Positions 9,873-14,340 of a stretch of DNA of 27,147 bases are shown piece by piece (within the stretch, counting starts at the first letter, position 1; every line of letters starts with the position of its first letter). The DNA comes from Cyclostephanos tholiformis (taxonomy: Eukaryota > Bacillariophyta > Thalassiosirophyceae > Thalassiosirales > Thalassiosiraceae), in NCBI GenBank assembly GCA_036939975.1, contig JALLPB010000137.1, forward strand, positions 1 to 27,147, in the 5' to 3' direction. The translations under genes were made by a program, and so were the position numbers. The notes beneath the pieces are model-generated. The model worked only from the letters and a program-made list of their open reading frames with translations, did not search any database and was not told where the DNA came from.

Positions 9873-12800
9873 TCAATATGACAGAAATCTCAATGCATTC
9901 TTCAATATAGTCATTCCATGTGCAGGACTGGTCAATATAGACTCTGGATGAAATTGAACTGCTGCATATGGCAGTGTCTTATGTTTAATTGCCATGACAA
10001 TTCCATCTTCCGTTAATGCTGTAACATCGAGGCAAGACGGAATCTTGTCGCGTATTCCATGGAGAGAATGATACCGCGCTACCTCAAAAGTGTCTGGCAA
10101 TCCAGAAAATATACTGCACAGGAATGATTGATTGTTAAGATGTACAATCGCTAACGAAAGCACCTTGGACACGGAATGGAACATCTTCTTCTTACCTGCC
10201 GCCATGTTGACCTGATTCTGTAAGCGTTATTGAAGATGGTTTCCCGTGCATCGGATATCCGAGCACACCAAGTTCGCCCCCAAAGTGTTCTACCATGCCC
10301 TGAAGGCCAAGGCATACTCCAAACCCAGGAATAAGGTTCTTCTCCAGGAGCGAAAGAGTTTTAGATAACTCAAAATCGGTCGGGTTCCCAGGGCCCGGGG
10401 ACAAGACGACCATGTCTGGTTTCTTTCCATCGTCAACTAATTTTTGGATCGTTCGAAGTGCCGATGGTCCACTGCGTAGAGTTATCACTTCCGCGCCGGT
10501 TTGACGCAAGTAGTTGCCTAGTGTATGGACAAACGAGTCCTCGTGATCGACAAGAACGATTCTCTTTCCTTCGCCGGGTCCAACTACGGCAGCGGCCGAC
10601 ATCGCATTATCCCCAACTTCCTCGTCACTATCAATAGCCGAGTCTATGGCGTCCAACATGGCCGATGCTTTCAATTCAGTCTCAAGTTCCTCTGCCTCTG
10701 GATCTGAATCGTACAGAAGTGTTGCACCAGCCCTCACCTCCGCGACGCCATTCTTCACCCGGACGGTGCGCAGAGTAAGTCCGGTATTCAAGCTACCATC
10801 AAAACCGACCAGGCCCACGGCCCCTCCGTACCAGCATCTGGGGGAACGCTCGTTGTCTTCTACAAATTGGATCGCCCATGTCTTGGGAGCTCCGGTAACC
10901 GTCACCGCCCAAGTATGGCACAGGAATGCATCGAGGGCATCGAACTCGGGACGCAAATACCCCTCAACGTGGTCCACCGTGTGTATCAGCCGACTGTACA
11001 TTTCGATTTGCCTCCTACCAATCACCTTGACGGATCCTGGCTCGCAAATACGGGATTTGTCGTTGCGATCAACGTCCGTGCACATGGTCAGTTCGCTCTC
11101 TTCCTTCAAGTTCATGATGAGACTCTTGACTCGCGCGGCGTCCTCCAACGCATCAATGCCCCGTGCGACCGTACCGGAAATGGGACACGTTTCAACCCGT
11201 ATGGCGCCCGGTCGGTACTCGTTGTTATCCACCTTCTCGCATCTGACGAACATTTCCGGGCTGGCGCCCACCAGGTACTCGTCCTCGCCAAGGTTGAAGA
11301 AGAAGCCATATGGACTGGGGTTGTTCGAACGCAACCGACGGAACAAACGGGAGGGACTGATTTTCAATGGCCTGCGGAAGGTTTGGGACAACACGACCTC
11401 GAACAGATTCCCCACCTTGAATTCGCGCTTGGCGCCGTCGACCGATTTCGTGAAGTCGCCGCGGGGGGTGTCGCGCGGCGAGAACTCTCCGCCGTTGTTG
11501 CGCGGATTTGAGTCGAATGGCAGGAACGGGGAAGACGATCCGTCGCGCGACAGGCCCTTCGTGGATTTGGAACCGTACGAGAAATCCAACGAAACCGTCC
11601 ACGCCGATTCTCGACTCTGATCCACGACCACGATCTCGTCCGCGAGGTAAAGCAACAGGTCGCGCTGATTTGGATCGCGATCTTGGGCCAGGTTAATCGG
11701 CTCGAATTGGAAGGTTAAATCGTAGCCAAATGCGCCGAAAAGTCCCAGCTGGAGGTCCCCGCTCTCGTCGCTGTCATATTGAAACAGATCCACCAGAGCA
11801 CGGACTACCGAGAACAGCGAAGGCTGAAACCCACAAAACGGCAAAACGAACGACATCGTTCGCAGACAGATGAAGAGACGTGTCGAGAGGTTGGCAATGG
11901 ATGTATAACATCATATGGCGTAGATCATTACAAAAAATGGTAGCTCACACGAACGAAAAACACGCGGGTGTCAACGACCTACCTGTCTCGAGCGCTCCTC
12001 CTCGTTGAACGACCCCACTTCTCCGGGGGGCGGGACACGTACATCGATGACGTCGTCCTCCATGGACACGTGCGACAATGTCCCGATTTCGAGGAGACCG
12101 TTCATGACGTCCATGACTGGCCCCAGCAGTACTTTACCCCTAGCGTTCAACGCGGTTATCGTGCATTTATTGCCAGTGCCGGAAACCTGGAGGGGCGGAT
12201 CGACGAAGCCCAGCGACCAGCGGGCGTATCTGGATTTGAGAGAGAGAGAGAGAGAGAGAGAAATGGTGCACAAGGATGGAGAGTGAGATGATACGAATTA
12301 ATTAACATCATCAACGTCGCGCTTTGATACAGCGTCAACCTCTATATTGACCGGTCGTTCCCGTAGGTGGATCGTTTTATTCGAAGTCCCCGTGCGAGAG
12401 AATGGTCGACGCGAGCAGTCTCTGGACCAACTCGTTCCTCCGCCACATATTTTACTCTCTCTTCTCTCACTCACCTGCCGGGAAACTCGTAGCTCGATGT
12501 CAATACCGCCCCCTTCCTATGATCGAGAAGATCCACAAGCCTCTCGATGGCGCCGTCGCTCCCCCAAGGCAGCGTCCCCGCCCCCCCCCCATCGTCGACC
12601 GCGACGTCGCCTTTGGAGAAGAACGAGGGCACGTAGGCGTCGCAATCATCGTCACCATCGCCACAATCATCGTCATTAACAATGCCGTGCGTGTAACGAA
12701 GTGGACGGACCGATGCGTCGATCTCGACACCGCCAACGGTGACGAATTTCCCGCCAGCCGGACGACGGGGGGGAGGGGCGCCGAGGCCGCGCCCCCCCCC

Positions 12801-13133: not shown

Positions 13134-13298
13134 GTAACTTTGCGTTCTACAACAAACCCAACGCACCTACCATCCAAGTGGCATGATTGACGAGCAAAAC
13201 GTCATGGCGCCAAAAATAAATAAATTTAGTAAATATATATTCTATTTTCGTCGTCTTGGACAGACTGAGTCTTGAGCAGGAGACAGCCCTTGGTCGCG

Positions 13299-13309
13299 GG
13301 TTCGACCCC
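13299..13309 (+). promoter_or_regulatory. Internal B box (RNA polymerase III)
   Basis: GGTTCGACCCC matches the B-box consensus GGTTCGANTCC at all but one position. It forms the T-arm of the permuted tRNA. Here it lies upstream of the A box, the reverse of a normal tRNA gene. Confidence 0.75.
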
Positions 13310-13346
13310 CGTCTGGTGCATTCAGCTTATGCTGTCGTTGCACTTG

Positions 13347-13357
13347 TAACTCAGTGG
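13347..13357 (+). promoter_or_regulatory. Internal A box (RNA polymerase III)
   Basis: TAACTCAGTGG matches the A-box consensus TRGYNNANNNG except for A at the third base. It covers T8 to G19 of the tRNA 5' half. Confidence 0.65.
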
Positions 13358-13397
13358 TCAGAGTGAGGGTCTTATGCTGCTAGCTCTCAGATTCTGC

Positions 13398-13403
13398 TTT
13401 TTT
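13398..13403 (+). terminator. T6 polymerase III terminator
   Basis: A run of six T follows directly after the trailing flank that pairs with the leader, at the place expected for the end of the precursor transcript. Confidence 0.7.
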
Positions 13404-13420
13404 ACCGAGTTAAAACTTTA

Positions 13421-13588
13421 TTGATCAGTGGTCAGAGTGAGGGAATTATGTTACTAGTTCTCAATACTTGCTTTTTTTCAGTTATCCTTTGTTTAGGGTC
13501 TCATGTTGCTAGCTCTCATTACATTATTTTTTGCTGTTAATCCTATTTTGAGGGTCTTATGCTGCTAGCTCTCAGTATATGTTTTTTT
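13421..13588 (+). repeat. Three decayed tandem copies of the tRNA 5'-half plus trailer, each with a T-run
   Basis: Copies lie at 13421-13478, 13491-13532 and 13546-13588. They align with 13349-13403: the core AGGGTCTTATGCTGCTAGC recurs as AGGGAATTATGTTACTAG, AGGGTCTCATGTTGCTAGC and AGGGTCTTATGCTGCTAGC, and each ends in a run of six or seven T. Core-to-core spacings are 74, 55 and 56 bases. Only the first keeps the D-loop sequence (CAGTGGTCAGAGT), and its D-stem is broken. None has a 3' half, so they are not complete tRNA genes. Confidence 0.7.
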
Positions 13589-14062
13589 GCTGTATGGGTC
13601 TCCCAACCGCATCAACCATTAGTCATGCCTAATAATACTTCTTTTACTCTTCTTTACTACTTTTGTTTTCTCAGTCCCCCTCTGGTCCTCTTACTAATTT
13701 CTCTCTCTCTCTCTCTTACTCGGACAGCATTTTTTGTTTCTTGCTTGATGAGAGCAAGACCTATTATTCAACTGCATGGGATTTTTTGCTATTTGGTGGA
13801 ACTCTTCTCTTCGCAATTACAGGTCATGATTTTTTGTGAATAATTTTGTTAGACTTCTTGAGCCTTTCAACAATTCATCATGCAGTCAGTATAATCTAGT
13901 TTACAATCACTCATAATGATGCCTAAAATTTGAAATTGCATGAAATTTATCCCTAGAGATGGTCACAAACATACATTTATTTCCAAGCATGGCAAACACT
14001 TCCCATTCCCAAATGTCATTGAGTTGGAGGTTAAAGCCTCTGAAGAAAAAATCTCAGATTTT

Positions 14063-14121: not shown

Positions 14122-14264
14122 TTATCAAAAATTAATTATTTGAAAGGATGTACTCTTCAGATTGATTTTGCACCAATTTCCACTTGTGTAGGATAGAAGA
14201 AAAAAAGATGGTACATATTCCTACATAGTTCCATGTTTAAATCAATTTTCAGTTGTTTTTTGGA

Positions 14265-14340
14265 TGGGTGCGAAGCACAATTGTTTCTCACATTTTTGAT
14301 GTGAGAAACAATTACTATGCGTTGCACCTATCTGAACTAA
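14265..14340. repeat. Foldback element, 15-bp perfect core
   Basis: AATTGTTTCTCACAT (14279-14293) pairs perfectly with 14299-14313 across a TTTTG loop. Outside, GGGTGC and GCACCT give a second, imperfect pairing, so the whole ~70 bp is a foldback. No coding content. Confidence 0.75.

Follow-up and report, generated by a model that had tools for sequence, protein, structure and literature searches.

The question raised by this locus is whether two halves of a tRNA, lying in the reverse of their usual order, can be a working gene of a diatom nucleus, and if so how such a gene would give a normal tRNA. The DNA analysed, hereafter the window, is a 27,147-nucleotide stretch of Cyclostephanos tholiformis (contig JALLPB010000137.1). 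Read directly from the sequence, the 3' half of tRNA-Ile(UAU) precedes the 5' half on the same (+) strand, exactly where the original prediction had placed the two halves. The 3' half, A38-A73 (13285..13320, 36 nt), contains the T arm, the B box and the discriminator A73, and the 5' half, G1-G37 (13340..13376, 37 nt), contains the D arm, the A box and the anticodon UAU. Between them lies a spacer of 19 nt (13321..13339, +), which runs from the 3' end of the tRNA to its 5' end and contains a small CAGC/GCTG hairpin. In an ordinary intron-containing gene the 5' half is upstream of the 3' half, and this is not the order of the Ile locus. The halves are flanked by a leader (13265..13284, +) and a trailer (13377..13397, +). 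On the 3' side of the trailer there is a T6 run (13398..13403, +), likely a terminator for Pol III; within 13249-13397, the spacer included, T does not occur four or more times in a row. On the opposite side, 45-51 nt upstream of the 3' half and within an AT-rich stretch, the sequence TATATAT (13234..13240, +) is a possible TATA-like Pol III promoter element, a role suggested by analogy with Cyanidioschyzon merolae (PMC3978253; this 2014 review is cited throughout for the part of its text available to us). The spacer length falls within the range of 1-74 nt given in the table of that review (PMC3978253).

Joined to each other, the halves make 73 nt. With CCA, which the locus does not encode and which we appended, ARAGORN calls the joined molecule tRNA-Ile(tat), in agreement with the complete cloverleaf that had been predicted after reordering. 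On the linear window the same program calls no tRNA gene, so a linear tRNA finder can miss diatom tRNAs. The D stem (4/4 pairs), the anticodon stem (5/5, with U31-G39 as a G-U pair) and the T stem (5/5, with G49-U65 as a G-U pair) are complete, and the acceptor stem has six of its seven pairs, U6:U67 being mismatched and U5-G68 being a G-U pair. U8, A14, G15-C48, G18G19, A21, U33, U54U55C56 and A58 are in place, the D-loop numbers having been assigned by hand, and the features of the type II criterion (U8, R15:Y48, G18G19, U33, U54U55C56) are all found in the joined tRNA. The anticodon loop, CUUAUGA (13371-13376), has G37 beside the anticodon UAU, which we take to be unusual in an Ile(UAU) tRNA, where A37 would be expected. 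Other cut sites giving A37 were considered by hand, and none of them leaves a 7-nt loop with A37. All arms form and the invariant bases named in the prediction are present, but the U6:U67 mismatch and G37 had escaped notice.

For a search in permuted order a covariance model was built from ordinary tRNAs of the same genome (18 of 24 were used) with their halves swapped at 37/38. Neither the Ile candidate nor tRNA-Arg(ACG) was included in the model, the scope of which is the 37/38 junction of class I tRNAs. In the 27-kb window, with E-values up to 10 admitted, the sole match was 13285-13376, with 57.4 bits and E=1.1e-20 (the E-values are rough); the check proposed together with the original prediction thus returned exactly the predicted interval. 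As a single match of 57.4 bits, obtained with a model of 18 other tRNAs, it is more than chance. The model was run on the window, then on 58 sources (window included), 56 and 21, that is, on 134 sources besides the window, two of which (L029 and L261) hold one and the same Arg array. Beyond the window the full matches in these 134 sources were two tRNA-Arg(ACG) units on contig C1280, with 57.2 bits each. The best remaining score, 29.7, belonged to an ordinary tRNA-Ala locus, where the middle of the model was skipped. The runs did not extend to L021, L030 (which overlaps L011), L031-L034 (which overlap the window), L035-L040, L068 (the window itself) and L127-L260.

The pattern GGTTCGANNCC matches at 138 places in the genome, 100 of which are among the matches listed. 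Thirty of the listed places were cut as loci (one being the window), 56 more were retrieved, 12 lie within loci already covered and two were left out; the remaining 38 are covered only where GGGTTCRANNCCC also matches. The latter pattern has 43 places in the genome, every one inside the examined loci. A permuted pattern ending in TAGCTCAG had no match in the genome, but this says little because it would match neither the window, which has TAACTCAG, nor Arg. A collection of viral contigs contained no permuted Arg, with either a tight or a relaxed pattern, and no permuted Ile, and a collection of prokaryote genome contigs contained no permuted Arg. A generic permuted pattern picked out at least 120 stretches in the viral collection, which we assumed to represent viral tRNA genes arrayed in tandem; none was used.

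The second permuted species, tRNA-Arg(ACG), forms a tandem array on the minus strand of C1280 (L029, 1192-983) in the order 3' half, CACGAT, 5' half, 55 nt, 3' half, GTATT, 5' half. The two copies of each half are identical (36/36 nt), while the spacers (6 and 5 nt) and the flanks differ, so that all halves, the outer ones included, seem to be constrained. A BLAST search with the joined Arg tRNA found only the four pieces of the array, each 100% identical to the query, and no normal-order intronless copy in the genome. ARAGORN takes the middle of the array for a normal gene whose intron is 55 nt long. This reading leaves a perfect 3' half before the gene and a perfect 5' half after it, and unused outer halves would be expected to decay. 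The 55-nt segment contains TTTT, a possible terminator of the first permuted unit. The array can be taken either as two permuted units or as one normal unit that contains an intron and is flanked on either side by an additional half, and it may be that both readings are true of one array. It looks like a step of the duplication-and-loss model, and offers a candidate intermediate for the formation of permuted tRNA genes.

In the canonical bulge-helix-bulge (BHB) for cleavage at 37/38, positions 32-35 pair with leader positions -3 to -6, and trailer positions +2 to +5 pair with leader positions -7 to -10. At the Ile locus one strand of the BHB is provided by the leader: its final two bases, AC, are the bulge, GGAG before them belongs to the central helix, and AGCA before GGAG belongs to the inner helix and pairs with TGCT (13378-13381) of the trailer in BHB register. 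A BHB-like motif made by leader and trailer at 37/38 is thus present at this locus. Seven of the eight pairs form in the fixed register, with one A35-G mismatch in the central helix, and 203 of 20000 flank shuffles were as good. The first Arg copy has 8/8 pairs (21/20000 shuffles), which is the unique best among 49 registers, and the second has 6/8 (1031/20000 shuffles as good). The number of pairs summed over Ile and both Arg copies was reached by none of the 20000 shuffles. Among the other 48 registers two were as good or better for Ile, 11 for Arg copy 2 and none for Arg copy 1. Taken as a normal intron, the middle Arg unit gives a BHB of 7/8 pairs (249/20000 shuffles), and the outermost Arg pair one of 6/8 (832/20000 shuffles).

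It has to be said that the register-fixed test, in which the 37/38 rule sets the register, was devised after a free duplex test had failed. With the register left open, the duplex energy of the Ile loop and its flanks was not significant, 541, 175 and 135 of 1000 shuffles being as good with flanks of 15, 20 and 25, respectively, nor was it significant for the two Arg copies, where 309 to 539 of 1000 shuffles were as good. The minimum-energy fold of the Ile precursor has leader-trailer pairing around the tRNA arms, with CTGCT of the trailer predicted to pair with AGCAG of the leader; the T arm of this precursor adopts its tRNA shape only with the arms imposed (-49.7 vs. -51.3 kcal/mol). Of the tests bearing on the interpretation originally proposed, the register-fixed BHB, the T6 run and the second permuted species came out in its favour, whereas the free duplex energy was no better than that of shuffled sequences.

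A normally ordered complete copy of the same tRNA had been named in advance as evidence against a permuted gene. A BLAST search of the genome assembly with the joined Ile tRNA yielded, besides the two halves, a single degenerate copy downstream of them and nothing else; a normal-order intronless copy was not among the hits. The anticodon-arm pattern AGAGCNNNNNNCTTATA matches at six places in the genome (its reversed control at 10), where ARAGORN calls no tRNA. Neither route revealed a normal copy, but this absence is weak evidence because the assembly (24.95 Mb in 1566 contigs) is fragmented and the list of tRNAs is incomplete (63/584 candidates were scored, and His, Phe, Trp and Val are missing from the tRNAs called).

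In the window itself GGTTCGA does not recur. Downstream of the Ile gene there are three degenerate partial tandem copies of the 5' half, trailer and terminator (13411..13596, +), at about 13411-13480, 13481-13537 and 13538-13596; close to the end of every copy there is a T6 or T7 run. D-arm sequence is kept by the first copy only, and the ATG of the Ile anticodon loop is also present in the copies. The Ile locus is prone to decaying duplicates, as these copies show. It is conceivable, though in our judgement unlikely, that the gene itself is permuted by descent and has since become a pseudogene, with no working Ile tRNA as its product. The three decayed copies would fit such a history, as would the U6:U67 mismatch and G37. 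However, the Ile locus scores the same as the Arg units (57.4 vs. 57.2 bits), its BHB potential and T6 run have been retained, and an admittedly incomplete search found no other Ile(UAU) gene.

Partial 3' fragments are also repeated downstream of the complete genes of tRNA-Pro (L025 1240-1540, minus strand) and tRNA-Leu (L011 1800-1900), as if duplication of tRNA-gene tails recurs in this genome. The Ile halves might accordingly be truncated pieces of two unrelated tRNAs lying side by side, or what is left, unexpressed, of two normal genes in tandem whose outer halves have been lost; the free duplex test of the flanks, not being significant, would be compatible with this. We think it very improbable, since the Ile halves together give a tRNA of 73 nt in which all four stems form, their flanks pair in BHB register, the layout recurs for Arg with identical halves, and at the normal tRNA loci searched the swapped model scored no higher than 29.7.

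At the curated (gathering) thresholds Rfam has no match in the window. In E-value mode the best match over both halves is YrlA (25.6 bits, E=0.0083), a bacterial RNA that has a tRNA-like module in permuted order, but a Y RNA-like non-coding RNA with such a module in place of a tRNA is the least probable explanation and was rejected on score, 25.6 bits being far below the gathering score of 69, the more so as its silicon transporter and fucoxanthin protein mark the host as a eukaryote and the Ile locus has an intact anticodon arm and a 37/38 BHB, neither of which YrlA is known to need. Elsewhere in the window a near-perfect long hairpin (14258-14337), whose tip consists of a 5-nt loop on perfectly paired arms of 15 nt, matches mir-548 weakly (32.3 bits vs. 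a gathering score of 90). mir-548 derives from hairpin transposons, and the hairpin is possibly a small inverted-repeat element.

The surroundings of the gene are those of a diatom. The genome encodes a silicon transporter (E=4.0e-206) and has 17 matches to the light-harvesting domain. One of the light-harvesting loci, L037, matches fucoxanthin-chlorophyll proteins in the PDB, the best being chain 6 of 8iwh (E=2.9e-85), which we take to be from Thalassiosira pseudonana; 8iwh, 8j7z, 6ly5 and others are presumably diatom structures. For the light-harvesting proteins of L035 and L036 the best PDB matches are the LHCI chains of 9vfj, with fucoxanthin proteins among the rest, so that these two proteins taken alone do not identify the host as a diatom. 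The window encodes an HMG-box protein and, on the minus strand at 10192-11856, a TrpE-TrpG-like fusion of a chorismate-binding domain with a class I glutamine amidotransferase, and C1280 encodes a GRIP-domain protein, all of which is in keeping with nuclear DNA. The GC content is 0.48 for the window and 0.50 for the first 10,000 bases of C1280. For the tRNA-splicing endonuclease domain the genome has one match over the cut-off (E=1.8e-10) and another that falls below it. Splicing of tRNAs seems to operate, since ARAGORN reads two tRNAs of normal order as interrupted by a short intron in the anticodon loop, tRNA-Tyr by one of 10 nt at 37/38 and tRNA-Gln by one of 13 nt placed a base later. The same program calls a selenocysteine tRNA (TCA) on contig C668 (L112 189-275, minus strand).

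We regard it as very likely, judging from the sequence, that the Ile locus is a working gene for tRNA-Ile(UAU) in the diatom nucleus, circularly permuted and of type II (37/38); that the arrangement itself is permuted is near certain. A working gene is supported by the gene order, the cloverleaf, the BHB potential, the T6 run, the recurrence of the layout in Arg(ACG) and the endonuclease domain, and the last four, together with the diatom markers, uphold the circularly permuted tRNA gene of the original prediction. What doubt there is about a working gene comes from G37 and the U6:U67 mismatch of the Ile copy and from the free duplex test; its three G-U pairs, the A35-G mismatch of the BHB, the other registers that do as well and the decayed copies downstream also count against it.

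The transcript of such a gene is probably cut and joined via a circle into a normal tRNA. Pol III would transcribe one linear RNA, consisting of leader, 3' half, 19-nt spacer, 5' half and trailer and ending at the T6 run. This RNA would fold as a whole tRNA body, with leader and trailer paired so that a BHB arises within the anticodon loop. Next, the tRNA-splicing endonuclease would cleave after G37 and before A38, and a ligase would join 37 to 38 to give a circle, from which RNase P and tRNase Z would take out the spacer, CCA being added afterwards. Transcription, cutting, circle formation, ligation, end trimming and charging are all inferred from the pathway of other algae (PMC3978253).

Up to 2014, 34 permuted tRNA genes were counted in six unicellular algae and one archaeon, with a patchy spread and a debated origin (PMC3978253). 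Table 1 of the review has no diatom, no Ile(UAT) and no Arg(ACG), and its text nowhere uses any of the words diatom, stramenopile, heterokont, Thalassiosira or Phaeodactylum (PMC3978253). For the literature to 2014, as far as this review covers it, this agrees with the earlier remark that no permuted tRNA was known to have been described in diatoms, and the Ile case is apparently a known kind of gene in a group new for it. One proposed origin is duplication of an intron-containing gene followed by loss of the outer halves (PMC3978253). We would tentatively go further and suggest, with somewhat less than even confidence, that permuted genes are an established part of the tRNA supply in a diatom lineage, that Ile(UAU) and Arg(ACG) come only from permuted genes, and that the Arg array is a living intermediate of the duplication-and-loss route. 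If this is true, established permuted genes of diatoms lie outside red algae, green algae, the nucleomorph descendant and archaea, in a separate, large and experimentally tractable group, and the diatom case would support repeated independent origin of permuted tRNA genes.

It is instructive to compare the diatom genes with the systems already known. The type II genes known from the nuclei of Ostreococcus and Micromonas and from the nucleomorph of Bigelowiella have the same order of halves, the same 37/38 junction and a BHB-like motif, and their spacers of 5-64 nt include the 19 nt of the Ile gene (PMC3978253). The Cys(GCA) gene of O. lucimarinus has an extra 5' half downstream, of which the window has a degenerate counterpart (PMC3978253). 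Our case differs from these in that the host is a diatom, the tRNA species are Ile(UAU) and Arg(ACG), and two permuted Arg units lie in tandem. With C. merolae the Ile locus shares a downstream T stretch and a CCA that is not encoded, and possibly also a TATA-like element, which would be looked for within about 50 bp upstream (PMC3978253). In the pattern of that alga the intervening region carries no signal, and the pathway through a circular intermediate has been shown experimentally there (PMC3978253). The junctions of C. merolae lie at several positions (PMC3978253), whereas our search model covers 37/38 only. Ordinary intron-containing tRNA genes (37/38) share the junction with the Ile gene and probably depend on one and the same endonuclease and ligase as it does, but the order of their halves is opposite, and the piece between the halves of the Ile gene joins the ends of the tRNA, not the anticodon loop.
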